From Myxococcaceae bacterium (GTDB taxonomy: Bacteria > Myxococcota > Myxococcia > Myxococcales > Myxococcaceae), in contig JAIBBR010000023.1 of NCBI GenBank assembly GCA_019694575.1, forward strand, positions 1 to 48,003: 48,003 bases of DNA. The letters run 5' to 3'. The position numbers and the translations under genes were made by a program. Below are positions 7,005-26,911 of this stretch, piece after piece. Under the pieces are notes generated by a model, which saw nothing but the letters and a program-made list of their open reading frames with translations, searched no databases and was not told the DNA's origin. Every line of letters begins with the position of its first letter. The stretch's first letter is position 1.

Positions 7005-8006
7005 ATGAAAATTTTGAAGATCGTAGGTTACGGGGTGGGCGCACTCTTGGTGTGCATCATCGGACTCTACGGCTACGTCGAAGCCGCCTCACAGCGCAGC
7101 CATGCCGCCTTGCCTGAGCCGAACATCAAGGCCAGCCAAGACTACGAAGTCATTCGCCGCGGAGAGTATGTGGTGCACGCCGTGTCGCACTGCTCTGCCT
7201 GCCACTTGTCGAATGCTGACGCCAAGCACCGCGCAACCGGAGCGCGGCCTGACTTGGTGGGCGGGCACGAATGGAACCTCCCGGGGTTTGGTCATTTCGT
7301 GTCGGCCAACATTACGCCCGACGAAGAGACCGGCATTGGCCAAATGAGCGACGGACAACTGGCACGCGCAATTCGCAATGGCGTGGGCCGCGACGGCAAG
7401 CTTCTGGCGTTCATGAGCTTGTGCGTAGGGCCCATGAGCGATGCAGACCTCACCGCCGTCGTTTCGTACCTGCGCGCGCAAAAACCGGTGAAAAAAGCGC
7501 AGCCCGCAGACCAACCGACCTTGATTGGCAAATTCATCGCCACCCGAATGAACCCGGCCGACAAGACACCGCCTGTCGACGTGCCCGCGGGAGGAATCAG
7601 TGTGGAGCGCGGCGAGTACCTGGCCAATGGCCCGGCGATGTGCGCGGGTTGCCACACTCCGGCTGACCCGCTTCGGGGCTTTGCCCCTTCAGGCGCGGCT
7701 TTCTCAGGCGAAGCAAACGCTGACCCCGACCCCACCGACGCCTCGATGGAATTGGTGACACCGAACCTCACGCCCGACCCGACGACGGGGCACATCACCG
7801 CGTGGACCGAAGACGTCTTCGTCAACCGCTTTCGCACTGGACCTGCCTACGAAGGCAGCCGCATGCCGTGGGGTAACTACCGCGAAATGACTGAAGACGA
7901 CGTGCGCAGCATTTTTCGTTACCTGCGCACGGTGGCACCGGTTCAACACGAAGTGGGGCCGTCGCGCCGCGAGCTGGGTTGGAAACCGAAGGTCACCAGC
8001 AGATAG
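7005..8006 (+). CDS. Membrane-anchored diheme cytochrome c
   Basis: A 333-residue protein with an N-terminal hydrophobic segment (residues about 4-25) that acts as signal or anchor. Two c-type heme sites are visible: CSACH at residue 63 and CAGCH at residue 213. Each lies in a cytochrome c fold of about 130 residues, and Met residues in GPMSD and SRMPWGNY are plausible distal ligands. The layout resembles the periplasmic cytochrome subunits of alcohol/fructose dehydrogenase-type complexes, but no dehydrogenase subunit is adjacent, so the electron donor is unknown. A longer in-frame start overlaps the exporter gene. The ATG at 7005 is chosen because the hydrophobic signal starts there. Confidence 0.87.
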   Translation: MKILKIVGYGVGALLVCIIGLYGYVEAASQRSHAALPEPNIKASQDYEVIRRGEYVVHAVSHCSACHLSNADAKHRATGARPDLVGGHEWNLPGFGHFVSANITPDEETGIGQMSDGQLARAIRNGVGRDGKLLAFMSLCVGPMSDADLTAVVSYLRAQKPVKKAQPADQPTLIGKFIATRMNPADKTPPVDVPAGGISVERGEYLANGPAMCAGCHTPADPLRGFAPSGAAFSGEANADPDPTDASMELVTPNLTPDPTTGHITAWTEDVFVNRFRTGPAYEGSRMPWGNYREMTEDDVRSIFRYLRTVAPVQHEVGPSRRELGWKPKVTSR

Positions 8007-8021
8007 GCGCAGCGCTGAAAA

Positions 8022-9287
8022 CTACTGCGGGTAAAGCGCACGGTAGGTGGCGCGGAGCAACCGGTTCACGTCACCGTTGGGCGCTTTGGGCCAATAGCCT
8101 TCGTTGATGGTCCAAATGATTTCGCCTCCCAGCTGGTTGTCGAGCACGTACTGGCCTTTCACCGCCACCGAGCGCTCATCTTCGAATGAAATGAAGGTGC
8201 ACCCCTCGGGGCCCTTGGGCGCGCTGAAGCTCAAGTACGACGCTTCAGCCACGTCGTCGAAGCGCAACGCCGACGCCTCGAAGTACGCGTCCATAATCGC
8301 GGCGAAAGTCATTTTGTTGTCGCCCGCTTTGATCGCGCCGCCGTTGGGCGTCTGACGGGGCCCGGTGACCGGGTTACCCCAGCACGAGCCGTAGTAACCG
8401 ATGCCAATGCCCATTTTTTTCTTGGAAATACCGAGCTTCAAAAACGCATTGAGCGTCGAGGAAACCGAGGTCGGCGTGGTGGGCCCTTCACCTTTGAGCG
8501 CTGACGAATGCCATGACAACCAGCCCGACCAACCGTCAGCCATGCCGTAAGACATAATGTTCAACCGGTCGACCTGCTGCGCCAGTTGCGCGAAGAAGCG
8601 GGGCACGCTGGCAGAATTCGCGTTCAACCACAGCACCGGCACCGTGAGCACGATGCCGGGCCGCGCGGTTTTCAGCGCCTCAACCAGCGCGAGCAACGGC
8701 GCTTCGTCTTGCGATTCAATCGGCTCCCAGTCGAGGTCAAGCCCTTGGTAACCGTAGTCGTCGAGCGCTTGGAGCAGCTTGGCGACGAACGCCGCGCGGT
8801 TGTTGGCAGAAGCGGCGCCGCGCCAGCCCGCAAGCTCACCGGCTCCTCCCACCATGAGCAACGGTACCGCGCCGGCTTCTCGGGCACGCTTCGAGACGTC
8901 TTTGGCAATGGTGGGCCCCAGCGGCCCCACATCGAAGTCAGTGGTCAAACCGCCACTCACTGTGGGGCGAACGCGGCCCATGGTCACATGGGTGAGCGAG
9001 CCGTAGTCAACTTCAGCGGGCGGGTACATGTCATGCTGGTAGCCAACGTAGTAGCCGATGAGCCAAGGGCCCGACGCATCACGGGGGTGCACGCCAGCAT
9101 CAGACGGGCCTGCGTCGGCACCGGCGTCGAACGGTTGCATCGAGCCGCCTCCGGTGCCCGTGTCGCCACCGCCCGCACCTGAGTCGAAACCACCCGCGCC
9201 GTCAGGAAAATCGCCCTGCGCGACACCCATGCAACCGGTGCCAAGCGTCAAAACAACCATCGCGGCTGAAAAGGTTTGTGACTTCAA
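8022..9287 (-). CDS. GH18 chitinase-like lipoprotein
   Basis: A 421-residue protein. The N-terminus has a signal peptide with a slightly degenerate lipobox ending at Cys19, then a low-complexity Gly/Asp/Thr/Ala linker (about 25-70) of the kind seen in many myxobacterial lipoproteins. A GH18 TIM barrel follows. The strand-4 motif reads QGLDLDWEP, so the two inner Asp and the catalytic Glu (E188) are present, but the first Asp of the usual DxxDxDxE is replaced by Gln. LNIMSYGM matches the beta-6 motif. Likely activity is hydrolysis of N-acetylglucosamine polymers such as chitin or peptidoglycan at the cell surface. Reduced or absent activity is possible. It is convergent with the cytochrome gene. 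Confidence 0.82.
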   Translation of the reverse strand: MKSQTFSAAMVVLTLGTGCMGVAQGDFPDGAGGFDSGAGGGDTGTGGGSMQPFDAGADAGPSDAGVHPRDASGPWLIGYYVGYQHDMYPPAEVDYGSLTHVTMGRVRPTVSGGLTTDFDVGPLGPTIAKDVSKRAREAGAVPLLMVGGAGELAGWRGAASANNRAAFVAKLLQALDDYGYQGLDLDWEPIESQDEAPLLALVEALKTARPGIVLTVPVLWLNANSASVPRFFAQLAQQVDRLNIMSYGMADGWSGWLSWHSSALKGEGPTTPTSVSSTLNAFLKLGISKKKMGIGIGYYGSCWGNPVTGPRQTPNGGAIKAGDNKMTFAAIMDAYFEASALRFDDVAEASYLSFSAPKGPEGCTFISFEDERSVAVKGQYVLDNQLGGEIIWTINEGYWPKAPNGDVNRLLRATYRALYPQ

Positions 9288-9617
9288 TGAATGTCCTTTC
9301 GGTACAGCCCCAAGCGTACCGGTGCGGCGTCAGGCCAACGAAAGCGCACTGACGGTGCCGCAATTTAGCTGGCTTTCGAAACAGCACGCGAGAGGTCCGC
9401 CCAACTTTTTTCTGCTTGTTTACGGCATGTAAGCAAGTGTGCCCACCCAGCAGCAGCCGCAAAACCTGGAGCACTTGTTTCGCAATTGTCGCGCCATGGT
9501 TACAGGCCTTTAGCGAAAGCGATGCATGGGGTGAGGTGAGCGATCTGCTCCCGCTTGCTTCGGAACGACGAGAGCGGCTACATGCGACGCCTTTTCCACA
9601 CAGAGGGATCTTTCGAC
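9288..9617. other. Divergent intergenic region between the GH18 lipoprotein and the barrel protein
   Basis: About 330 bp without a supported gene, expected to carry both divergent promoters. It contains a T-rich patch near 9403-9411 next to a near-perfect inverted repeat (listed separately) and an AGAGGGA ribosome-binding site just before the plus-strand start at 9618. I could not define promoter boxes with confidence. Confidence 0.4.
9415..9437. promoter_or_regulatory. Inverted repeat, possible operator
   Basis: CTTGTTTAC and GTAAGCAAG pair over 9 bp with one G-T wobble around a 5-base spacer. It lies about midway between two divergent genes and has no T-run on its 3' side in either direction. 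A regulator-binding site is therefore more likely than a terminator. Confidence 0.35.
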
Positions 9618-10589
9618 ATGAACCGTCGTCTCATCGCAATCGTGGCTGTATTCGCCGCTGCGCCTGTTTCAGCGCAAATGTTGTCAGACATGGGGCCGCC
9701 ACAGCACCGTTTCGTGCACCGCAACACTTTCGCGCTTCGGGTGAACCCACTGGGGCTGTTGTACGACGGGCGGTTCTCGTACCGGCTGCGGCTCTTCGAG
9801 AGCAAGTCAGTGGCGTTGCGCGACAACTTCGTCGCCATTGGCGTGGCGGCGGGTGCGAGCCCTGCTTTCGTGCGCGGCGGCCCATACATCGAAATTCAAC
9901 CGCTCACGGTGTTCAGTGTGTGGGCGACGTACGACGTGCAAAAATACTTCGGCACTTTCAACCTGCTGCAGTCTTTTCCCAACCAGAATGCCGAGTTCTC
10001 TGATCAAACGATTCGCGAGCGCGGTGAGATGGGCGCCAAATTTGCCGGCTTTGGCACCAACCTGACCATCGGCGCCAACCTGCAACTGCAAGTGGGCCCG
10101 ATTGTGCTGCGCAGTGGAGCCCGCATGATTCAGCCCAAGTTCGCGCTGCGCGACGGCGACACCGTCATTTACGATCAGTTCTATGACTTGTTAATGCCCA
10201 ATGGCCGTTTCACCTTCACCAACGATCTCGATCTGCTCTACCGCACGTCGTGGGGTTTGGCGGCAGGTCTTCGCTACACCATGGGCGTGCCGATGTACGG
10301 CCCCGAAAACCAAGCGGCAGGCGTGGCCGCGAAAGACAATTCAACGCACCGCATGGGCCCCTTCATCACCTACCGCCTGTGGGACGAAGACGGCAGCGCC
10401 TTCAATCAGCCCACTATCGCGCTGGCGATCAACTGGTGGATGAAACACCGCTACCGCACCGGCGCCGAACAGAGCTTGGCGCTGCCCTACTTGGCCTTGG
10501 CCTTCAACGTGGTGGGTGACCTGATGCCGATTAAAAAGCCGGCTCCCGCAGTACCGGCGCCTGCCCCCCAGAGCCCCGAGACGAAGTAA
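9618..10589 (+). CDS. Probable outer-membrane beta-barrel protein
   Basis: A 323-residue protein. The ATG at 9618 has a good AGAGGGA ribosome-binding site and begins a signal peptide ending near VSAQ. The mature part alternates hydrophobic and polar residues with many aromatic and Gly positions (for example NLDLLYRTSWGLAAGLRYTMG-like stretches), as in outer-membrane barrels. It ends in a Pro/Ala-rich tail rather than a C-terminal aromatic residue, which is atypical for BAM substrates. I do not recognise a named family. The next gene starts 13 bp downstream and is probably co-transcribed. Confidence 0.6.
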   Translation: MNRRLIAIVAVFAAAPVSAQMLSDMGPPQHRFVHRNTFALRVNPLGLLYDGRFSYRLRLFESKSVALRDNFVAIGVAAGASPAFVRGGPYIEIQPLTVFSVWATYDVQKYFGTFNLLQSFPNQNAEFSDQTIRERGEMGAKFAGFGTNLTIGANLQLQVGPIVLRSGARMIQPKFALRDGDTVIYDQFYDLLMPNGRFTFTNDLDLLYRTSWGLAAGLRYTMGVPMYGPENQAAGVAAKDNSTHRMGPFITYRLWDEDGSAFNQPTIALAINWWMKHRYRTGAEQSLALPYLALAFNVVGDLMPIKKPAPAVPAPAPQSPETK

Positions 10590-10602
10590 ACTTCGCTTTC
10601 GC

Positions 10603-13330
<2,728 letters not shown>

Positions 13331-15776: not shown

Positions 15777-15804
15777 GCACGCGGCTGCTTTCGCAGCTAC
15801 GTGC
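15777..15804 (-). terminator. Hairpin between convergent genes, possible terminator
   Basis: GCACG-CG-GCTGC pairs with GCAGC-TA-CGTGC across a TTTC loop (10 paired bases, one 2-base internal mismatch). It spans the PilT stop codon and lies 24 bp after the receiver-PAS gene. On the minus strand CTCTTTGC follows, a weak U-tract, so it may end the filament operon transcript. Confidence 0.45.
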
Positions 15805-16897
15805 CTACGCCTTGCAGATTGAGCAACCGCCGCAGGTCGCTCGGCGCGTTGGCGTAGGTATATGCCACCTCGGCGGTGATCAGGTTCTCGCGCACCAACG
15901 CCACCAGGTGTTTGTCGAACGTATGCATTTGTTGATCGCCCGAGCGCTCGAGCACCGCGGGAATGGTGGCCAACTTCACCGGGTCTCTGATGCACTCTTT
16001 GATCGCATAGTTGTTCACCAGCACCTCGCAGCACACCACCCGGCCGCGGCTGCCTTTGCGTGGCAACAAGCGTTGGCAGACGATACCCCGCAGCGCGTCG
16101 GCGAGGCGCGAGCGCATACCCGCCTGATCGTCATTGGGCAGCATCGCCAAGATGCGCTGCACTGTCTTCAACGCCGAGCCGGTGTGAAAGGTGCTGATCA
16201 CCGCGTGCCCGGTTTCAGCTGCTTGCAGCACCACTTCTAAGCTGGCCGCGTCGCGAATTTCGCCCACGAAGAGCAAGTCGGGGTCTTCACGCATTGCCGC
16301 TTGCAGCGCATCGGCATAGCTCGGCGTATCGCGCCCCACTTCACGCTGCGAAATACACGAGGCCACGTCGGTCAGGCTGTACTCAATGGGGTCTTCGACG
16401 GTAATCACATTGAGCGCTTGCGCCGCGGCGGCGTAACGCAACATCGCCGCCGCGGTGGTCGACTTGCCGCTGCCGGTGGGCCCGGTGATCAACACCAAGC
16501 CGGGCCCGTGCTCCGACAGCGACTTCACCACCGGAGGCAACCGGAGCTCCTGAAAAGTCGGAATTTGAGGGGGCACCAGGCGCAACGAGAGCGCCCAGCC
16601 TCCGTTGTCGCGAAACGCATGGCCACGGTAACGCGCCACCCCGGCCTGCTCGAACGAATATTCCCAACTCATGGCCCCTGCCTGCGTGGGGCGCCGGCCC
16701 GACGTGAGAGCGATGACCTCTTCAATCGTCTGAGCCGTCAACGCGGGCGCCGACGTGCGCGCCAGCTGACCATCGATGCGAATGAAGGGCGGAGAACCGG
16801 CCCGCAAATGCAAGTCAGACGCCCGGGCTGAAATCGAGCCACCCAAGAGCTTGAGGAGCAGCGCTTTCGTTTCTTCACTCGCCATTTCGCCGCCCAT
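15797..16897 (-). CDS. PilT-family type IV pilus retraction ATPase
   Basis: A 366-residue hexameric ATPase of the PilT/PilU family, which power pilus disassembly at the inner-membrane base. Visible motifs are the N-terminal SDLHLR, Walker A GPTGSGKST (about 139-147), the Asp box ITVEDPIEY, Walker B LLFVGEIRD (208-216) and the His box GHAVISTFHT. The ATG at 16897 has AAGGAG ten bases upstream. A GTG at 16906 would overlap the preceding stop as GTGA but lies almost on the ribosome-binding site. No other pilus gene is in the window. Its place directly after a glycosyltransferase at the end of the fliD-fliS operon is unusual and may mean a PilT paralogue with a flagellar or surface role. Confidence 0.88.
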   Translation of the reverse strand: MGGEMASEETKALLLKLLGGSISARASDLHLRAGSPPFIRIDGQLARTSAPALTAQTIEEVIALTSGRRPTQAGAMSWEYSFEQAGVARYRGHAFRDNGGWALSLRLVPPQIPTFQELRLPPVVKSLSEHGPGLVLITGPTGSGKSTTAAAMLRYAAAAQALNVITVEDPIEYSLTDVASCISQREVGRDTPSYADALQAAMREDPDLLFVGEIRDAASLEVVLQAAETGHAVISTFHTGSALKTVQRILAMLPNDDQAGMRSRLADALRGIVCQRLLPRKGSRGRVVCCEVLVNNYAIKECIRDPVKLATIPAVLERSGDQQMHTFDKHLVALVRENLITAEVAYTYANAPSDLRRLLNLQGVGT

Positions 16898-16902
16898 GGC
16901 AG

Positions 16903-18498
16903 TCACGCTCCTTGCAACGCGCCCACCCCGACGTACGCGGGCAGCCAGGGAAAGACGCTTTCAATCGCCGGCACCATTTCTTGAAACCGGCCAAGCAACC
17001 GCTCGCTGCGCTTGAGCTTGAGCACATCGACCCAGGCACGCATTGCCGCGTCGGCGGCTTCGGCAGACAACGCCACTTCGAGCTCGCTGTCTTGGCCTTG
17101 GAGCAGATCGCACACCAACACCCCCAACGACGCTTCGGGAAATTCGGCTTGCAGGCTCACCGCCAACGCACGCGCAGTGCCCACGTCGCCGAGGGCCAAC
17201 AGCGCCTTCGACAACTGCACCGCGGCTGGGCCCTGGGGAGGGTTTCCCGCGGCACGGGCAAAAGCCTGCGCGGCCTGCAGCATGTGGCCGGCCAGCATGG
17301 CCTCTTCACCGAGCGCTTCGTCAAGCTCGACGCACGCCCCATGTTGCTCGGTGTGGCTTTGGGCGAAACGCACCACCGCGTCTTCGCCGCCGGTCATTCG
17401 CGCCACCACCACCCGCGCCAAGAGTGCCTCGGGGTCACGCGCGTTCCAGCTTAGGGCCTCGTCAGTGCGGGCCTTCGCCAGCTCGAAATGGGCAGCTCCC
17501 AGCGCCAGCCGCGCCAAACCCAACAACGGCCGCACCGTCGCCAGCTGCAGGTCTGCCACCTGACCCGCTTGGGCAAGGCAGCTCTCGTAGTCGGCCTGGG
17601 CCAGCGCCGCTTCGCCTTTCAGCTCGCGCAATTCGCCCCGGTACAACAACATGGCCACTTGGTGGCCACAGGGAGACCACCATTGCTCCATGAACCGCAG
17701 CGCCTGGGTGGGTTGGCTTCGGTACAGCGCGTGGGCGACCCATGTCAGCAGCGCGCCCCCGTAATGCGCACCGCGAACCGCTTTGTGCCCTTGCCGTTCT
17801 AACGCAGCCAGCGCCCGGCTTGCCGCCCGCTTGGCCAAGCCAGTGTCTTCCCAGAAGCGCGCTTGCTCGAGCAGCTTGTAGTGGCTGTAAAAGTCGTCGG
17901 GCACGGCAGCGAGCTGCGCCTCGAGTAACCCCACGTCTCGGGTCTTCTTGTCGCGCGCTTGGGCCCGCTCGCGCACGTAACCCAAATGCTCAATGCCCCC
18001 TTTGAAATGAACGAGCTTTTGCCCCGTTGCTGCCAGGCGCGCGGCGACTTTTGCCGTCGCGTCTTCATGAATGCGGTGCTCGTAACGAATCGACGGGTGG
18101 TTGCGAAACAGCCGCAACAAGCGCGATTGGCGGCGATGACCGTGTGGCAGCGCATTGTGCATCACCACCGTGGCCGCGCCGACCGAGGGCTCTTTCACCA
18201 CGGCTCTGATCTCTTGCACCAGCTCGGGGCTGGTCAGCTCGTCGGCGTCGAGCACCAACACCCACTCGTGCTGCGCGGCGGCGAGTGACACGTTGCGCGC
18301 TGCCGCGAAGTCGCCGCTCCACAGACATTCGAGCACCGTTCCTCCTGCTGCGCGGGCGATGTCGGGCGTGGCGTCTTGCGAGCCGGTGTCGACGACACAC
18401 AGCTGGTCCCACACGCCGGCGGCGCGCTCCAAGCACGTGGGCAGCAGCGCCGCCTCGTCACGCACAATCATGCACAGCGACACACCTGGCTTGATCAT
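16903..18498 (-). CDS. Family 2 glycosyltransferase with TPR-like C-terminal half
   Basis: A 531-residue protein. Residues 1-200 form a GT-A glycosyltransferase domain with SLCMIVRDE, VVDTGSQD and the metal-binding VLDADE (Asp84, Asp86). Residues about 210-500 are Ala/Leu-rich helical repeats typical of TPR or SEL-like solenoids. The start overlaps the upstream stop by 4 bp (ATGA), indicating translational coupling. Similar GT2-TPR proteins occur beside flagellin genes and some glycosylate flagellin, so flagellin or cap glycosylation is the leading inference. The sugar donor and acceptor are not shown by sequence. Confidence 0.8.
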   Translation of the reverse strand: MIKPGVSLCMIVRDEAALLPTCLERAAGVWDQLCVVDTGSQDATPDIARAAGGTVLECLWSGDFAAARNVSLAAAQHEWVLVLDADELTSPELVQEIRAVVKEPSVGAATVVMHNALPHGHRRQSRLLRLFRNHPSIRYEHRIHEDATAKVAARLAATGQKLVHFKGGIEHLGYVRERAQARDKKTRDVGLLEAQLAAVPDDFYSHYKLLEQARFWEDTGLAKRAASRALAALERQGHKAVRGAHYGGALLTWVAHALYRSQPTQALRFMEQWWSPCGHQVAMLLYRGELRELKGEAALAQADYESCLAQAGQVADLQLATVRPLLGLARLALGAAHFELAKARTDEALSWNARDPEALLARVVVARMTGGEDAVVRFAQSHTEQHGACVELDEALGEEAMLAGHMLQAAQAFARAAGNPPQGPAAVQLSKALLALGDVGTARALAVSLQAEFPEASLGVLVCDLLQGQDSELEVALSAEAADAAMRAWVDVLKLKRSERLLGRFQEMVPAIESVFPWLPAYVGVGALQGA

Positions 18499-18818
18499 GG
18501 GCCTTCACTTTCGAAAGGGGCCTGCGCGGTTTCTTGGCCGTACGCACCCATGGCGCGGCGCGAGAGCCCGGTTTGCGTCACCGAGCCTTTGAGCTGCGCC
18601 TGCAGTTGCAAAGCCGCTTCGAGACAGCCGCGGTGCAGCTCGAGCAATTCATGGGCCACTTGGGCTTCGAGCCGAGCCTGATTATCGGCCGAATGCGCAC
18701 ACAGGGCCACCGCTTGGTCGGCGGTCTCGGCCGCGGCCACCGCGTCTTTCGCCTCGAGCTGTTGTTTGACCTGCCCCAAGAGCGCCCGCAGTTGTTCAAT
18801 GCCGAAGGCCGCGGTCAT
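18495..18818 (-). CDS. Small helical protein in the FliT position
   Basis: A 107-residue, mostly alpha-helical protein with a coiled-coil character over residues 5-80 and a polar tail. It overlaps the fliS stop and the glycosyltransferase start by 4 bp on each side. In many bacteria fliD-fliS-fliT are consecutive and FliT is a ~100-residue helical export chaperone for the cap protein. The assignment here rests on size, helicity and position rather than on a recognisable motif. Confidence 0.5.
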   Translation of the reverse strand: MTAAFGIEQLRALLGQVKQQLEAKDAVAAAETADQAVALCAHSADNQARLEAQVAHELLELHRGCLEAALQLQAQLKGSVTQTGLSRRAMGAYGQETAQAPFESEGP

Positions 18819-19198
18819 CGCGGAGCACCCGCCGCGGCTTGGCTGACAGCCGTTTGAAAGGCTTCGACCACGGGCACGAAGGCGCGCTCAGCTTCTCGCG
18901 CCAGCGTGGCGTCGAGCTTGAGCGAAGCTTGGGTGAGCCGCAGCATCACGAAGCGGTACACGTCAGAGAGGTAGTCGCACAGCTCGGGCGACTGGTTGCG
19001 ATCAAGCGTGGCGTGCAGCTCGGTCACGATGTCAGACGCGTGCGTCAGCGCCTGGGCCGCGTCGAGCGACCGGCGCGCCTCGATGGCGGCGGTGCCTTCG
19101 CGAATGTCGCGCAGTGCGCGTTCGAAAAGCAGCACCATTAACCGCTCTTTCGAAGCGGTCTCGCGCTGGGTCTGGCTGTACCGGCTCGCGGCGATCAT
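18815..19198 (-). CDS. fliS: Flagellin export chaperone FliS
   Basis: A 127-residue four-helix protein. The N-terminal ASRYSQTQRETASKERL matches the FliS pattern Y-x-TASxxKL, and LCDYLSDVYRFVMLRL matches the conserved third-helix region. It binds the C-terminus of unpolymerised flagellin in the cytoplasm and delivers it to the export gate. Its start overlaps the fliD stop as ATGA. Confidence 0.9.
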   Translation of the reverse strand: MIAASRYSQTQRETASKERLMVLLFERALRDIREGTAAIEARRSLDAAQALTHASDIVTELHATLDRNQSPELCDYLSDVYRFVMLRLTQASLKLDATLAREAERAFVPVVEAFQTAVSQAAAGAPR

Positions 19199-20553
19199 GA
19201 ATTGCTCTGTTTGTTTGAAGAGAGGTTCTGCGACAGAAAGTTGCTGATCGAATTGAGGCTGCCCACCACCTTTTCCATCGCGGTGAACTGCTTCACGATG
19301 CGATCTCGAAAGGCGTCGATGCGTGCCTGGGCCCGCACTTGATCATCATCGAGACGATCGACGGCCCCGTTGAGGCCGCGTTGCCGCAACACCAACGTGC
19401 CATCGGTCGAATTGGTGAAGCGATCGACCATTTGACTGGCCACGTCGCCCATGCCAGTGGCGGCCTGAGAGAACAGACCATTCAACGCCGATGGCTCGCG
19501 GGCGACAGCCGTCTTGAGCACGTTCTTGTCGAGCGACAAGCTGCCGTCGCGCGCCGTTTTCACCCCAATGTCGGCGAGCGTGCGCACGCTGCCCAAGCCG
19601 TCGACCGCGGTCGTCACCAGTCGCTGCAGGCTTTGTTGCAACCCCCGCACCGTACCGTCGCCAGCCAAGGTCGATTGTCGGTTAGAGCCGTCGGTGACCG
19701 CGAGTTGTTTCTGCACCAGCGAAGCCACGTCGTTGTACGCGGCGATGAACGTCTGCAGCTTTTCGGCCGTGCCGTCAACGTTGCTGGTCAGCACCACGTT
19801 TTCGGGCGCCGCGGTGATCGCCTTGAGAGAAAATGAAACTCCGTTGATCACGTCGCTCACTTCGTTGCTCTGACGCTCAATCGGCAAGCCATCGACCGTG
19901 AACTGGGCATTGGCGGCGGTCGACGTCAGCGCCAAGCCCAGGGCCTGCCCGGCGCCACCATTGCCGTTTTCGGTGATCAGCAGCGCGTCACCGGCCACGC
20001 CCCCTAGCGGAAAGCCGGTTTCGTCGTTGCTCAGTGACAAGTACGTCTGCGTGCCGTCAGAGATCAGCGTCGCGCTCACCGGAGCAGCCGAGGCGTTGAT
20101 CGCCGCGGCGACGTCGGCCACCGAGTCACCGTCGTTGATGGTGATGTCGTAAGAGGTGCCCATGACGTTGAGGTTCAAAGTACCCGCCTGCACCGCCGCG
20201 TCGTCACTGGCGAACCCGACGGAGCGCGCTTTGGCTTCTGAAGCGAGCGCAGTCACCTGAACGCCGTAGCGGCCGGCTTGCGCGCCCGAGCCCGCGGTGA
20301 CAGAAAAACCCGTTTGCCCAGTGGTGGCCACGACTGCCAACGCGCCGTCGCTCTTCAAGGCCTTGGCGGCGTCGCGCAGGGCCGAGAGCTTCGAAGCAAT
20401 GTCACCGAGCAGTGAAACCTGGCTCTTGAGCGCGCTTTGCTTCGCCTTCAAAATCGTCAGCGGCCGCGATTCGATGGTGACCAATTGATCAATAATCGAA
20501 TTGGTGTCGATGCCCGACGCCAAGCCGCCTGCGCGAAAAACGGGTGTCGCCAT
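19195..20553 (-). CDS. fliD: Flagellar filament cap protein FliD
   Basis: A 452-residue protein. The N-terminal FliD_N signature is clear (FRAGGLASGIDTNSIIDQLV), and the C-terminal coiled-coil region ends in LNSISNFLSQNLSSN, as in HAP2 proteins. Five copies form the cap under which flagellin polymerises. The ATG at 20553 is preferred over the in-frame start 33 bp upstream because GGAG lies nine bases before it. It is downstream of flagellin and heads a coupled set with fliS, the FliT-like gene, the glycosyltransferase and the PilT gene. Confidence 0.95.
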   Translation of the reverse strand: MATPVFRAGGLASGIDTNSIIDQLVTIESRPLTILKAKQSALKSQVSLLGDIASKLSALRDAAKALKSDGALAVVATTGQTGFSVTAGSGAQAGRYGVQVTALASEAKARSVGFASDDAAVQAGTLNLNVMGTSYDITINDGDSVADVAAAINASAAPVSATLISDGTQTYLSLSNDETGFPLGGVAGDALLITENGNGGAGQALGLALTSTAANAQFTVDGLPIERQSNEVSDVINGVSFSLKAITAAPENVVLTSNVDGTAEKLQTFIAAYNDVASLVQKQLAVTDGSNRQSTLAGDGTVRGLQQSLQRLVTTAVDGLGSVRTLADIGVKTARDGSLSLDKNVLKTAVAREPSALNGLFSQAATGMGDVASQMVDRFTNSTDGTLVLRQRGLNGAVDRLDDDQVRAQARIDAFRDRIVKQFTAMEKVVGSLNSISNFLSQNLSSNKQSNS

Positions 20554-20567
20554 GAGAAAGATCTCCA

Positions 20568-20601
20568 GCCGCCCCAGACCCTCCATGAGTACCGGGGCGG
20601 C
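20568..20601 (-). terminator. Stem-loop between flagellin and fliD
   Basis: A perfect 8-bp stem (GCCGCCCC with GGGGCGGC) encloses an 18-base loop just after the flagellin stop codon. There is no U-tract, so it is more likely a partial terminator or an mRNA-stabilising 3' structure that keeps flagellin expression above that of fliD. Confidence 0.5.
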
Positions 20602-20623: not shown

Positions 20624-21451
20624 TTACCCGAGCAGCTTGAGGGCGATTTGCGGCATTTGGTTGGCTTGCGCGAGCACCGACACACCGGCTTGCATCAACA
20701 CCTGCGAGCGGGCCATGCGCGAGGTCTCTTCAGCCACGTCGACGTCGCGAATACGGCTGTTCGCGGCCGAGAGGTTTTCAGAGGCGGTTTGAATCGTCGA
20801 AACCACTGACGTCAAGCGGTTGCCGACGGCGCCAAAACCAGCGCGGGCGTTCGAAACGTCTTCGAGCGCAGAGTCGACCAACGCGAGCGCCGCTTGCGCA
20901 CCGCCTTGGGCCGACAGATCGATACCGTCGACGCCCAAGGTGGCCGAGGTCGCGTCAACGGTCGAGACGGCGATCTGATCGTTCGCTGGCGTGTTGCGAA
21001 TACCGACCTGGAACGTCAGGCTGGTCGCGGTGGAGTTCAACAGCGAGGTGCCGTTGTACTCAGCCGCGTTGGCGATACGATCGATTTCGGTGATCAGCGC
21101 GGTGGCTTCTGACTGAATGTACGCCCGCTCGGTGTCGCCCACGCCGCTCGAAGCAGACTGCATGCCCAGCTCGCGCAGGCGGCTCAAGATGTTGCTGGTT
21201 TCGTTCAATGCACCTTCAGCGGTCTGCACGAGCGAAAGGCCGTCTTGCGCGTTGCGTGACGCTTGGTTGTACGAGCGAATCTGCGCTTCGAGGTTCACGC
21301 TGATACCGAGGCCGGCAGCGTCGTCGCCGGCTTTGGTAATGCGAAAACCTGAAGACAAACGCGACATCGACGACGACATCATCGCGTCGGTTTGGAACAA
21401 GTTACGTTGCGCATTCAGCGACGCAACGTTGGTACGAATCGTCATTGCCAT
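20624..21451 (-). CDS. fliC: Flagellin
   Basis: A 275-residue flagellin, near the small end for the family. The D0/D1 N-terminal region is canonical (MTIRTNVASLNAQRNL, SRLSSGFRITKAGDDAAGLGIS), as is the C-terminal region ending in QVLMQAGVSVLAQANQMPQIALKLLG. The variable central domain is short (about residues 140-185), so the filament surface should be simple. AGAGGG lies seven bases before the ATG. A sigma-28 promoter sits directly upstream. Only one flagellin gene is present in the window. Confidence 0.98.
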   Translation of the reverse strand: MAMTIRTNVASLNAQRNLFQTDAMMSSSMSRLSSGFRITKAGDDAAGLGISVNLEAQIRSYNQASRNAQDGLSLVQTAEGALNETSNILSRLRELGMQSASSGVGDTERAYIQSEATALITEIDRIANAAEYNGTSLLNSTATSLTFQVGIRNTPANDQIAVSTVDATSATLGVDGIDLSAQGGAQAALALVDSALEDVSNARAGFGAVGNRLTSVVSTIQTASENLSAANSRIRDVDVAEETSRMARSQVLMQAGVSVLAQANQMPQIALKLLG

Positions 21452-21505: not shown

Positions 21506-21532
21506 TTGTCGGCACGGGCTGGCTAACTCTTA
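21506..21532 (-). promoter_or_regulatory. Sigma-28 (FliA) promoter of flagellin
   Basis: On the minus strand TAAGAGTT, then exactly 11 bases, then GCCGACAA, compared with the sigma-28 consensus TAAAGTTT-N11-GCCGATAA (5 of 8 and 7 of 8 matches). The -10 box is about 55 bases from the flagellin start. The -35 box overlaps the stop codon of the upstream cyclase-like gene, so flagellin can be expressed separately from the flgF-flgL operon. Confidence 0.75.
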
Positions 21533-23815
21533 AGTCCCCGAAACAAGTCGGACATGGGCCCACAAACGGCGAACCGCGACAGAACGCGCGTACAGCGTCG
21601 CCAAGCTGTCAGACGAAACACGTACATCGACCGCCACCTTGTCTACCCGCAGGTAGCCGGTAAGCCCGTCGGGCCACCGGGCCAAAATCGACTGCGCCGC
21701 GGCGCTCCAGCCCAGGGGTAAATGGGCTCCGAAGCGCTCCCCGAAAAGCTCGACCGTCAACCCGAACGGCAGGCGACCGTACACACTGACGCCAATTTCT
21801 TCGGGCGCTTCGCCCGCGGCGCGCTCGACCGCGGTCACCAAGTCGGGCGTGGCACGAACTGACAGCAAGCGCGGCTGAAAACCTTCATGCAGCAAGGCTT
21901 GCGCCCCCGCCAAGTGACGCTCCAGCCACCGCACCGGCACGTCTTCGCGCAGCCGCCAGCCTTGCGAGTCGGTGTAAAGCAGGCAGGCCCAGTTGTCTTC
22001 GCGCAGCCAGGCCAGACATTCGACATTGTTGGGGTTGTTGAGCGCCCAACGTTTGGCCGTCACCACGCCGCCGAAGTCAGGCGCTTCGGGGTCTAAAGCG
22101 TAGCGGCGGGGGCGCGCGGTGAAAGCGCCGACGCTGCTCCAGCGATGGTCGCCGTCGAGCCACCAGAGCACACGGCCTCCGGCTTCGATGGCCAGGGGCA
22201 ACTCTTGCGCGCCGGGCCGGCAAAAGCGGGCCAACCGCGCCAACCGCGCCACCGCTGGCTGCGCTCCGGGCACGGCGAGGGCCACGTCAATCATGGTGCC
22301 GCGCATCGCCTCGAGGGCCACTTTCTCAACCGTCGGCGTGGGCCCCAACCGGCTCGCCGCCGGCCGGCTGCCCGGAGTCAACGTCACCACCAGCGCTTCG
22401 GTGAGCGCGAGCGAGCGGTCTTTGCCCCGGTTTAAGGGATCATAAGGAGGCCCCACGGCTTCACGCCGGCCCACCGCCAGCAACAACGTGCGCCGCTCGA
22501 GAGGTTGCCCAAAACGGCGCAACAGCGGCCGCCACTCTTCGGGCGCTACGCTCTGTGCCACCGCCGCTCCGAGCGTTTGCGCCACCAAAAAAAGTGCCCG
22601 GCCCCACGCCTGCTCGACCGTTCGGCCACGGCCCAGCACCGCGCCCTGCACTTCGCGCACTTCGACTGTGTTGCCTTGCGTCACCACCTGCAGCGGCTCG
22701 GGCCCGGTTTTCAGCTGCGGCTTGAGCGCCTTTTCCAACGCGGGCAAAAAAAATGTGGGTACGCCCACGCCCAACCAGGCGCGGTGCAAATAGCGGCGCA
22801 GCGGGCCAAGGACGGCGCGCGGCACCCGCCGGGCTTCACGCAACGCCAACAGCGTCAGCTCACGCGCCAGCCGCAACACGTTTTCGACGTCGCTGGTAAT
22901 TTCTAATTCGAGAGGCACCGTCGACAGCACCCGGCGGTTTCCCGGTGAGGCGAGCAACCGGCCCGCCCACGCTTGGGTGGCCGTCGAAGCCGAAAGCGTC
23001 GCCAGCAGCTCGAAGGCAAGGCGCGGCCGGGGCAACCCGGGTGACAACCACACCGCGCAAAAGAGCTCGGGGTCGGCGATTGACAGCGCGGCGCGACCTT
23101 CAATGGCGGCCAGGTTCAACGCGTCGAGCAAGGCCTGAAACGGCGCCGGCACGCCTCGCGCGGCGAAGGGCAACAACAACGCCCGGGTGAGCTCGGTCGG
23201 CGCCCATTGCCACAACCCAGCCAAAGGCGGTGTGTCGTCGGGCGATTCACCTGCACGCCGCGCGGCTGCCCAGAATGAAGCCGGCAAGCGGCCCGCAACC
23301 ACCGCGCCGAAACAGAGCACCCGCGCCCAGTCGACGCGAGAAGGTGCGTTGGGCCACGGCGTCACCCGCGTTGACACTCCGGCTTGGGTGAGCAACGCTT
23401 CAGCCGCTTCGAGCCGCGCCATGGCCCGTTCACGCTCGCGCTGGCCCAGATCGCCCGCCCAACACACCCAAGCGTCGAAGCCCCCTTCGCGCGGTGCCGC
23501 GAACAAAGCGGCGATGACCCGACGGCCACGCTGCATGCCGCTGGCGGTCGGCAAATCGAACGCGCGGGCCAGGGCGCCCCACTTCTTGCCCGCCTTCTGC
23601 CCTTCGATGCCGGGCGCGTCGCTTTTCAGCTCGCGGCGAGGAAAAGTGGCGTGGAGCAAGGCCGGCAAGAACGACAGCGCCTCGGCGTGCCGCTTGGGCA
23701 ACGTGGCCAAGAGCCAGCGGGTACGTCGACGCAACAGCGCAGAAAGGCGCCGTGCTTCGTGAGCACCCGAATCACCCCGGGCGCCACCCACTGGCGAAGC
23801 GAGCGCGAGCCTCAT
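21530..23815 (-). CDS. Class I adenylate cyclase-like protein, probably catalytically degenerate
   Basis: A 761-residue protein four bases downstream of flgL and directly upstream of flagellin. I see by-eye similarity to enterobacterial CyaA (class I adenylate cyclase): FLPALLHATFP (49-59) against LLPTLLHYHHP; FDAWVC (113-118) against LDIWVC, followed by a helix rich in Arg/Glu and then GVSTRV against GVEVSF; and GLWQW (200-204) against SLWQL. In CyaA the SDLDIWV segment carries two metal-binding Asp. Here the first is Gly112, the second survives as Asp114, and the upstream GS motif of the nucleotidyltransferase fold is not evident. cAMP synthesis is therefore doubtful. No signal peptide or TM segment is seen. 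The assignment depends on a remembered alignment and needs profile confirmation. An alternative is an unrelated large flagellar-locus protein. Confidence 0.5.
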   Translation of the reverse strand: MRLALASPVGGARGDSGAHEARRLSALLRRRTRWLLATLPKRHAEALSFLPALLHATFPRRELKSDAPGIEGQKAGKKWGALARAFDLPTASGMQRGRRVIAALFAAPREGGFDAWVCWAGDLGQRERERAMARLEAAEALLTQAGVSTRVTPWPNAPSRVDWARVLCFGAVVAGRLPASFWAAARRAGESPDDTPPLAGLWQWAPTELTRALLLPFAARGVPAPFQALLDALNLAAIEGRAALSIADPELFCAVWLSPGLPRPRLAFELLATLSASTATQAWAGRLLASPGNRRVLSTVPLELEITSDVENVLRLARELTLLALREARRVPRAVLGPLRRYLHRAWLGVGVPTFFLPALEKALKPQLKTGPEPLQVVTQGNTVEVREVQGAVLGRGRTVEQAWGRALFLVAQTLGAAVAQSVAPEEWRPLLRRFGQPLERRTLLLAVGRREAVGPPYDPLNRGKDRSLALTEALVVTLTPGSRPAASRLGPTPTVEKVALEAMRGTMIDVALAVPGAQPAVARLARLARFCRPGAQELPLAIEAGGRVLWWLDGDHRWSSVGAFTARPRRYALDPEAPDFGGVVTAKRWALNNPNNVECLAWLREDNWACLLYTDSQGWRLREDVPVRWLERHLAGAQALLHEGFQPRLLSVRATPDLVTAVERAAGEAPEEIGVSVYGRLPFGLTVELFGERFGAHLPLGWSAAAQSILARWPDGLTGYLRVDKVAVDVRVSSDSLATLYARSVAVRRLWAHVRLVSGT

Positions 23816-23819
23816 CGCC

Positions 23820-24701
23820 TTACAGTTTGTCGAGCAAAGTGAGCTTGAAGCTGCGCGCCGCCGCGGTCATCGACGCGTCGAGGGCACGTTCGGCCAGCGC
23901 GAGCCTGCTGGCGGCGTCGACCAAGTCGGTCTCTGACAAATGCGAAATTTCGGTCACTTCGGCGTCACGGCCGCTGCGGCCCGCTTCAGCTGCCGCGTCG
24001 AGCACTGTCATCGATGAACCGAGGCGCGAACGGCCCGCCGCCAATTGGCTGATACCGGTGTCGAAGTCGTTCAAGGTCGCGGCCACGGCGGCGCGGTTGC
24101 CTGAAGTGAGCGCCGTCGAGAGCGCCTGGAGCGAAGCAAAAATATCGACGCCTCCGGCGGTGCCTTTGATCACCACGTCGGCGCGCACCGACGCGTCTTG
24201 CAAAATGCCGGGAGCCAGCTCGACACGCCGCACGCCGGTGTCGCCTACGTAATTGCCCGTCGCGTCGAAAGGCGGCGTGGAATCTAAATTGCCGCCGAAA
24301 ATGTAGCGGTTGCCCACGCGGCGGTTCATCAAACCAACCACGCTGTGCAACAAGCCATCGACTTCGGCGGCGGCGGCGGCGCGCTCATTGGCTGAATAGC
24401 TGTCATTCGAGAGCTGCACCGCCAGCTCACGCGCTCGGCTGAGGGCGTTGGTTGCCCCTTCGAGCGCTCCGTCGGCCGACGCCAATTCGTCTGACGCGCG
24501 CTGCGCGGTTTGCACGATGGCGGCGAAACGGGTGGCTGCCACCCGGTGGGTGACAATCAAACCGGCCGCGGTGGGGTCATCAGCGGGGTGCGTCACCCGC
24601 ATGCCGGTGCCCACTTCATCTGAAACCGCTTGCGCCCGCTCTTTCGCTGCCCCCGCATGGGCGCCTGCTTGCCGAAACACCATTTGGTCAGTGACGCGCA
24701 T
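23820..24701 (-). CDS. flgL: Hook-filament junction protein FlgL
   Basis: A 293-residue protein (HAP3). The N-terminus MRVTDQMVFRQ and the helical SADGALEGATNALSRARELAVQ region match FlgL. NRRVGNRYIFGG is the family-typical turn into the central domain. The ATG at 24701 has AGGGGGG five bases upstream. A longer GTG start would overlap flgK. It joins FlgK to flagellin. Confidence 0.93.
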   Translation of the reverse strand: MRVTDQMVFRQAGAHAGAAKERAQAVSDEVGTGMRVTHPADDPTAAGLIVTHRVAATRFAAIVQTAQRASDELASADGALEGATNALSRARELAVQLSNDSYSANERAAAAAEVDGLLHSVVGLMNRRVGNRYIFGGNLDSTPPFDATGNYVGDTGVRRVELAPGILQDASVRADVVIKGTAGGVDIFASLQALSTALTSGNRAAVAATLNDFDTGISQLAAGRSRLGSSMTVLDAAAEAGRSGRDAEVTEISHLSETDLVDAASRLALAERALDASMTAAARSFKLTLLDKL

Positions 24702-24712
24702 ATTCGCCCCCC

Positions 24713-26119
24713 TCACTTCAGCGACATCAAAGTCTCTAAGAGCTCGTCGGTGGTCTTCATGACCTTCATCACCGCTTCGTAGCCACGCTGCGCTTTGGTC
24801 AGGTTGATCATCTCTTCGTCGATTGACACGCCCGACACCGAATCGCGCATCGCCTCGAGGTTCGAGAGCACCGCCCCGTCATGCTCGAAGGCCGCCTGCG
24901 CGCCCGACGCCGCCGAGCCGAAACGGGTGATCAACGCCGACAAGCTGGCCGTGGCGTCGCCGCCCGTCGAGAGCAGCTGGCTCTCGGTGGCAATCAGGCT
25001 CATCAGATTGTCGGCATCTCCCGGCAAGGTGGTACCCGACGAAGCGGCCGCCAAGGTGCGCGCGTCAGCCAAAGCCGTGGCGTCGACTTGAATATTCGCG
25101 GCCGCGCCTTCGGCGGTGGCCCCCACGGTGAGCAAGTCGCGGCCATTCACGCCGTCGAGGCCGTAGCCTGCGCGGTGCACCGTGTTGATCGCGCCCGCCA
25201 AGTCGAAGGCCAGCGTGTCGACGTCGCGCTCGGCCGAAGCCAACGCGCCATCACGTGCGTCGAGTGCGCCACCCATCGCCCCGCCCAACGCGCCCGTTGC
25301 CAATGTTTGGGGGCCGGTACCGTCAGCCAAGGTAAGCCGCACGCTCGAATGACCGCGGTTGGCGGCGTTGGGCTGGGTTGAGAGCGTGGCCGAACGGGTA
25401 CCGCTGACCAGCGCCGCGCCCGAAGCCAGCGCCATGCTCACATTGCCCTGGGCGTCAGGCACCGGTACCGCTCCAGTCAAGGTGCTGAGCTGATCTTGCA
25501 CTTTCTGGCGGGCGTCGAGCAGATCGTTGGGAGCGCCTCCCGCCGCACGTTCTACCGCGATGCGGCGGTTCAAGTCGGCCATCGACGCCGCGAGACTGTT
25601 CACCTGCTGCGTTTGCCCCTCGAGCTGCGCGTCGATGCCGCTGCGCGCCGACGACAAGCCGCCGGCGGTGCGTTGAAACGCCAAGGTCAGCGCCCGGGTC
25701 GACGCCACGGCCGCTTCACGCGAGCCTAAGTCAGAAGGGTTTTGCGACAGCGTGCGCAGTGACGCGTAGAAGTCGCCCAGTGCCGCGGTGAGGCCCGCTC
25801 CCGCGTCAGGGTCGAGCACCGACACTGACGACAACGCCGAAGTCTGTGCTTCTGAGCGCGACTGTTGAGCCAACGCGGCCGGCAACTGCGCCTCTAAAAA
25901 GCGATCGCGCGACTGGCTCACCGTGAGCAGCGACACGCCGCGGCCAATGAAGGCCCCCGCGAGCCGTTCGGCCGGCAGCACCGCTTCGAGCTCGGCGCGT
26001 TGGCGCGCGTAACCTGGGGTGTTGGCGTTTGACAGGTTGTTGCTCGCCGTGGCCGCGGCGCCGCGGTGGGCCCCCAGACTGCTGGCCGCTTGCGACAACA
26101 GTGCGAGAAGGTCAGCCAT
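24713..26119 (-). CDS. flgK: Hook-filament junction protein FlgK
   Basis: A 468-residue protein (HAP1). The N-terminal rod/hook signature ATASNNLSNANTPGYARQ is present, and the C-terminus has GVSIDEEMINLTKAQRGYEAVMKVMKTTDELLETL as expected. Ala content is high throughout. It lies between flgN and flgL in the usual flgM-flgN-flgK-flgL order. Confidence 0.95.
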   Translation of the reverse strand: MADLLALLSQAASSLGAHRGAAATASNNLSNANTPGYARQRAELEAVLPAERLAGAFIGRGVSLLTVSQSRDRFLEAQLPAALAQQSRSEAQTSALSSVSVLDPDAGAGLTAALGDFYASLRTLSQNPSDLGSREAAVASTRALTLAFQRTAGGLSSARSGIDAQLEGQTQQVNSLAASMADLNRRIAVERAAGGAPNDLLDARQKVQDQLSTLTGAVPVPDAQGNVSMALASGAALVSGTRSATLSTQPNAANRGHSSVRLTLADGTGPQTLATGALGGAMGGALDARDGALASAERDVDTLAFDLAGAINTVHRAGYGLDGVNGRDLLTVGATAEGAAANIQVDATALADARTLAAASSGTTLPGDADNLMSLIATESQLLSTGGDATASLSALITRFGSAASGAQAAFEHDGAVLSNLEAMRDSVSGVSIDEEMINLTKAQRGYEAVMKVMKTTDELLETLMSLK

Positions 26120-26125
26120 CGCTTT

Positions 26126-26602
26126 TTAAGCCCTCGTTGAAACAGTCGCCGACAGCGCACCAGCCGCCGCTTGTTGACCTTGAGGCCCGTAGCTGGCCGC
26201 CTTTGGTACCACCGCGGCCAAGTAGCTGCGCACGACGCTCAAGGTGCGTTCACCCAACGAGCGGTTGAGCGCGTCGAGCTCGGCCAAGGTCGACGACAGC
26301 AGGCGCACTTGCGCCAGCACGCCTGACAGTTGCGCGGCCTCAGTGGGCACCTGGGCCGCCAAGGCAGGCAGCGTCACCTCGGTGAGTGAGAGCCGCTTCG
26401 CGGCGCCGGCCAAGTCGCGCTGCAACGCACGCTGCAAAGCAACGCAGGCAATGTTGAAGCCGTCGCGAAGCGCGGCCCGCCGCAACAACGCTTCACCGTC
26501 GAGGTTGCGCAGCAACAGGCGTTCTTCGCGCGCTCGTTCGACTTCAGACACCAACGCGTCTTTCAGCTTCTCGGCGGTCGCGATGGCGGGAGTGAGCTCC
26601 AT
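26126..26602 (-). CDS. flgN: FlgN-like export chaperone for FlgK/FlgL
   Basis: A 158-residue helical protein with an N-terminal coiled-coil (KLKDALVSEVERAREERLLL) and the LNRSLGERTLSVVRSYLA segment typical of FlgN. It sits between flgM and flgK, as in most flagellar loci. FlgN holds FlgK and FlgL for export. The sequence is divergent, so the call rests on pattern plus position. Confidence 0.8.
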   Translation of the reverse strand: MELTPAIATAEKLKDALVSEVERAREERLLLRNLDGEALLRRAALRDGFNIACVALQRALQRDLAGAAKRLSLTEVTLPALAAQVPTEAAQLSGVLAQVRLLSSTLAELDALNRSLGERTLSVVRSYLAAVVPKAASYGPQGQQAAAGALSATVSTRA

Positions 26603-26620: not shown

Positions 26621-26911
26621 CTAAGGAGGCAACATCGCCTGAATGCGTGCGTCGAGCTCGGCGGCTTCGAGAATGCGCTGCGCCACTTGGCTGGCCGACG
26701 GCTTGAAGGTGCCGTTGCGAACCGCTGCTTCGATCGCGACCAAGTGAGCCGCCCGTGAGGCGCCCGAGCTCGTCTTCGCTTGAGAGATCGCCGCATCGAC
26801 TTCGCGGGTGTTCTCTAAAGTAACCACGTCGTGTTTTTCGGCCTGGGGTGACGCCGCGTCGGCCTTGACGGGGCGCAAGGGGCTGATTTCCTTCGGTTCG
26901 TTCACTTTCAT
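26621..26911 (-). CDS. flgM: Anti-sigma-28 factor FlgM
   Basis: A 96-residue protein. The C-terminal half IEAAVRNGTFKPSASQVAQRIL matches the conserved FlgM sigma-binding motif (I..G.Y.....IA..LL). FlgM holds FliA inactive until the hook is complete and is then exported, releasing late transcription. The N-terminal half is polar and probably disordered, as in the family. Confidence 0.92.
   Translation of the reverse strand: MKVNEPKEISPLRPVKADAASPQAEKHDVVTLENTREVDAAISQAKTSSGASRAAHLVAIEAAVRNGTFKPSASQVAQRILEAAELDARIQAMLPP

Follow-up and report, generated by a model that had tools for sequence, protein, structure and literature searches.

A predicted class I adenylate cyclase-derived pseudoenzyme encoded between flgL and flagellin in Myxococcota

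The flagellar filament operon of a Myxococcaceae bacterium carries a large gene between flgL and the flagellin gene fliC, which raises the question of what a protein of 761 amino acids does at this place. The original prediction, judged by eye, was that it resembles class I adenylate cyclase (CyaA) with a damaged active site. The locus was analysed in a DNA stretch of 48,003 nucleotides, called here the window, and relatives of the gene were sought within the same order and then the phylum, in a set of 195 Myxococcota genomes.

A conserved gene in the flgL-fliC slot

The gene is a real open reading frame spanning 21530–23815 on the minus strand, and it is called the pseudo-cyclase gene below. 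All the filament genes of the window lie on the same strand in the order flgK-flgL-pseudo-cyclase-fliC-fliD-fliS, with flgM and flgN upstream. The anti-sigma28 gene flgM (26621–26911; PF04316, 2.8e-5, just under the cut-off) and the chaperone gene flgN (26126–26602; PF05130, 4e-7) are followed by flgK (24713–26119; FlgK_D1, 5e-53) and by flgL for the hook-filament junction (23820–24716; Pfam match to Flagellin_N). Downstream of the pseudo-cyclase gene lie fliC (20624–21451; PF00669, 1.4e-38 and PF00700, 1.4e-26), the filament cap gene fliD (19195–20586; PF07195, 1.7e-49) and a fliS-like flagellin chaperone gene (18815–19198), assigned from its position and conservation after fliD in the family loci. 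A family 2 glycosyltransferase gene (16903–18498) located 3′ of fliS, a place kept in many relatives, is a candidate flagellin glycosyltransferase. A gene for a PilT-like ATPase (15797–16906) is also found near the filament operon, as it is in loci L035 and L059.

Both ends of the gene were found as predicted. It starts 4 nt after flgL, and in the members measured the start codon either overlaps flgL or lies no more than 26 nt after it. The stop codon is 78 nt from fliC, and a predicted sigma28-like promoter of fliC (21506–21532, minus strand) with the site TAAGAGTT-N11-GCCGACAA scored 12.0, whereas the highest background score among 300 random windows was 10.5. The pseudo-cyclase stop codon forms the beginning of the −35 element of this promoter. 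The best sigma28-like site began exactly from the stop codon in several relatives too, with most of their scores falling within the background.

The search returned 30 genomes at E ≤ 0.001. Setting aside G098, whose match is a true cyclase, and the marginal G084 and G078, 27 of the 195 genomes have a clear family member. The neighbourhood survey bore out the proposed position, as the gene lies directly after flgL and directly before fliC in 27 of 27 genomes wherever the contig reaches, with one gene per flagellar cluster. In a FastTree phylogeny of FlgK-FlgL-FlgI, the pseudo-cyclase clusters grouped in a single clade, within which the gene has in places been lost or replaced. The slot is empty, with flgL directly before fliC, in the flagellated Myxococcota loci L111–L113, L117, L120 and L123; thus, the pseudo-cyclase is dispensable for flagella as such. 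Elsewhere in flagellated Myxococcota the slot is occupied by CsrA-FliW, by response-regulator histidine kinases or by an FHA-domain protein (the latter two kinds in L114, L121, L122 and L124), as though the place were set aside for regulators.

One genome (G171) has a second copy outside any flagellar cluster, besides its flagellar copy. This gene (L089:8718–12485) encodes a protein of 1256 amino acids in which a zinc ribbon and a Ser/Thr kinase domain (residues 220–481) are joined to a C-terminal pseudo-cyclase region, and such a kinase fusion fits a signalling role.

Descent from class I cyclases and loss of the active site

The window protein alone gave an E value of 0.035 with PF12633 (Adenyl_cycl_N; 14.5 bits, under the curated cut-off of 27) and no match to PF01295 in the Pfam search. 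The single sequence gave nothing significant in the NCBIfam and PDB sequence searches, and found no relative when the genome contigs were scanned with it. With matches as weak as these, the window sequence by itself would not prove kinship with CyaA. The evidence for kinship comes from the family. A profile (A1) built from 16 members matched the genuine class I cyclase encoded in G098 with an E value of 3.5e-6 (8.3e-7 in another search) and no other named family, and its search of the PDB gave just weak rows that were read as chance. In hhalign comparisons, the family matched a CyaA profile (A3) across the N domain (E 6e-6) and the Myxococcota cyclases (A4) across nearly the whole length (E 3.4e-5). 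The profile-profile scores against CyaA were 59.5 (A5) and 51.9 (A4), compared with maxima of 16.2 and 22.8 in 40 column shuffles each and with 18.5 and 16.9 for the reversed alignments. These results support a shared descent of the window protein with class I adenylate cyclases, as had been proposed by eye.

When the parts were tested separately by hhalign, residues 15–200 matched CyaA with an E value of 3e-6. They hold the nucleotidyltransferase-like domain (residues about 22–175; 23291–23752, minus strand). Residues 425–761 (21533–22543, minus strand), the C-terminal half that is common to the flagellar-operon cyclases, scored 36.1 against a shuffled maximum of 22.5, in the same order relative to the N part; a visible piece of this match is PPYDPLNRG in the family and QWDPLDYG in the cyclases. 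The middle region, about residues 200–430, showed no significant match to CyaA. Among the three blocks noticed by eye, FLPALLH (residue 49) and FDAWVC (residue 113) fall within the significant block, and GLWQW (residue 200) falls in the unmatched middle. As GLWQW is not conserved in the relatives either, it was dropped as evidence of kinship.

To examine the active site, 21 family members were aligned with eight class I cyclases. In all eight cyclases a GS motif (GSxGT, or in E. coli GSTSS) precedes SDxD. In all 21 members, the GS segment of roughly eight residues is mostly or wholly missing, a larger loss than the lack of a clear GS motif noted earlier, and its deletion would leave two strands joined by a short hairpin. 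The first metal-binding Asp is replaced in every member aligned, mostly by Gly; it is Gly112 in the window protein, in agreement with the residue number given in the original prediction. The second Asp corresponds to Asp114, so the metal-binding pair DxD is broken in the window protein, within a catalytic loop remnant at residues 105–119 (23459–23503, minus strand). Because both the GSxGT loop and the first Asp are lost, catalysis of the class I type is not expected, and the aligned residues predict a pseudo-cyclase that would not synthesise cAMP. Nine class III cyclase domains are encoded in genome G000, so cAMP need not depend on the pseudo-cyclase gene there.

The structural models were compared with solved folds. 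The model of the window protein had a pLDDT of 84.7 and that of an intact Myxococcota cyclase had 68. The best solved folds for the window model were the MNT nucleotidyltransferases (Z 7.2 over 115 residues, rmsd 5.1 Å, within the range of common arrangements), with AadA at Z 5.9; for the intact cyclase model, AadA came on top (Z 9.9) and MNT gave Z 6.0. The secondary-structure elements of both models agreed in order along the length (39 matched; Z 5.0 against 1000 order shuffles). A sequence search of the PDB turned up no structure of a class I cyclase, and Foldseek gave no E value below 0.001. The actin-like, ribosomal and reverse-transcriptase rows obtained for the C half were weak and were not believed. 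For the window model, the MNT match is suggestive, but the Z values are not decisive by themselves.

Intact cyclases in the same slot

PF12633 was above the cut-off in only 3 of the 195 Myxococcota genomes (E < 1e-43). In these clusters (L057, L058 and L059), from two Myxococcales MAGs and one Deltaproteobacteria MAG, an intact class I cyclase is found in the order flgK-flgL-csrA-fliW-cyaA-fliC. The intact cyclase of L059 lies at 7906–10839. The cyclase frame of L057 ends early, and a C-terminal-like remainder is present in a separate ORF (9564–10034). Filament genes were not found near the class I cyclases of the other phyla examined (Desulfovibrio, Spirochaetia, Nitrospinota and others). Since this slot can hold an intact cyclase, the window gene is probably equivalent in position to a flagellar-operon cyclase, in an inactivated form. 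In the FlgK-FlgL-FlgI tree, the cyaA clusters sit elsewhere, with the fliW clusters and not beside the pseudo-cyclase clade. Because the tree separates them, descent from one ancestral cyclase of the slot, later inactivated, is plausible but not proven. FliW was detected in 9 and CsrA in 10 of the 195 genomes (9 of the latter above the cut-off), and none of these belonged to the pseudo-cyclase genomes. This absence tracks the lineage, and its link to the pseudo-cyclase may be coincidental.

Possible function and comparison with known systems

With homology, loop loss, purifying selection, the flgL-fliC position and intact slot cyclases all obtained by computation, we consider it reasonably probable that the protein is a catalytically dead descendant of CyaA, which regulates filament formation or serves as a scaffold for it without enzymatic activity. 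The gene position is what points to a role as flagellar component or regulator. As the active site is deleted in every copy examined, yet the gene and its position are kept, the findings suggest that a signalling enzyme has been recycled in flagellum assembly as a component or regulator.

The loss of the catalytic site and secondary losses in some lineages could also be read as decay of a gene without function. This reading was rejected as hardly credible, since the frame is open in all complete members and selection acts on the protein. The dN/dS values ranged from 0.11 to 0.55 among five related members, where dS was high in most pairs, and the closest pair, which is the most reliable, gave 0.11 compared with 0.07 for FlgL of the same pair; such a low value indicates that the gene is maintained because of the protein it encodes. 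Descent could also be questioned if the protein had only the general nucleotidyltransferase fold and no ancestry in class I cyclases, as may be read from the insignificant Pfam match of the single sequence and from solved-structure matches spread over several nucleotidyltransferase families. We regard this as very unlikely, because class I cyclase is the only named family that the profile matched, the C-terminal half matches too while lying outside the nucleotidyltransferase domain, and true cyclases are found at this place in the operon.

It seems unlikely that the active site has been rebuilt and that the protein is still an enzyme, performing another nucleotidyl transfer or another reaction. 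Asp114 is kept, many members have Asp or Glu at this position, and some charged residues (R31, R524, E624, R749 and R750) are invariant in the family. Against this stand the deletion of GSxGT in all members, the missing first Asp, the loss of the second acidic residue in several members (L039 and L042 among them) and the lack of any invariant, catalytic-looking set of acidic residues in the family. A more serious competitor, held at roughly one chance in a handful, is a structural or chaperone component, in which the cyclase scaffold would serve only to bind FlgL, FliC or the export gate and would neither regulate nor sense. The conserved C half and the unvarying association of the gene with flgL and fliC across the 27 genomes favour such a component, whereas its size of 650–760 amino acids and its fold are unlike those of the small chaperones FlgN and FliS of the same clusters.

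Taking the preferred reading of a dead cyclase descendant further, the protein would most likely act in the cytoplasm, regulating flagellin production or serving as a scaffold for it. Translational coupling is suggested by the 4-nt gap in the window and by start codons that overlap flgL in some relatives, and the pseudo-cyclase would be made in the cytoplasm along with FlgK and FlgL, just before flagellin expression starts. There it would most likely sense flagellin, FlgL or a nucleotide, and the sensing may adjust the synthesis or delivery of flagellin. In the cyclase-bearing clusters, the counterpart role might be divided among CsrA, FliW and cAMP. We tentatively put forward, as a possibility that we consider less likely than the general reading above, that a second-messenger enzyme of the filament operon became a FliW/CsrA-independent flagellin checkpoint, possibly a nucleotide-sensing one, in a group of flagellated Myxococcota, with the intact clusters representing the ancestral state.

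The fold of model residues about 40–330 appears like that of the MNT and AadA nucleotidyltransferases, from which the pseudo-cyclase differs in having no catalytic motif and no sequence match. With CyaA (PF12633 and PF01295), it shares a helical N-terminal segment with LPxLLH, a nucleotidyltransferase-like domain, a helical middle, a C-terminal half and the order of elements; unlike CyaA, the family is without the GSxGT loop and the first Asp, stays under the Pfam cut-offs and resides in a flagellar filament operon. A literature search on class I cyclases with flagella, FliW, Myxococcota or pseudoenzymes, in full text and with few subscription journals, returned nothing on such a case. In the literature searched, pseudoenzymes derived from class I cyclases apparently have not been described, and likewise a class I cyclase inside a filament operon.

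In Bacillus and Clostridioides, flagellin homeostasis is controlled by the CsrA-FliW-flagellin checkpoint (PMC11898703). The pseudo-cyclase is likened to it by gene position, since the checkpoint genes sit at the same place beside flagellin in related clusters, whereas FliW and CsrA are missing from the pseudo-cyclase genomes, and a sequence relation between the two systems is not expected. The intact cyclases of L057–L059 share the slot before fliC in the flgK-flgL cluster and differ from the pseudo-cyclase in their intact catalytic motifs and in having csrA and fliW between flgL and cyaA. The intact and inactivated forms in one slot offer a natural before-and-after pair for the change of a signalling enzyme into a non-catalytic component, and they point to a route of flagellin control in bacteria without FliW and CsrA.
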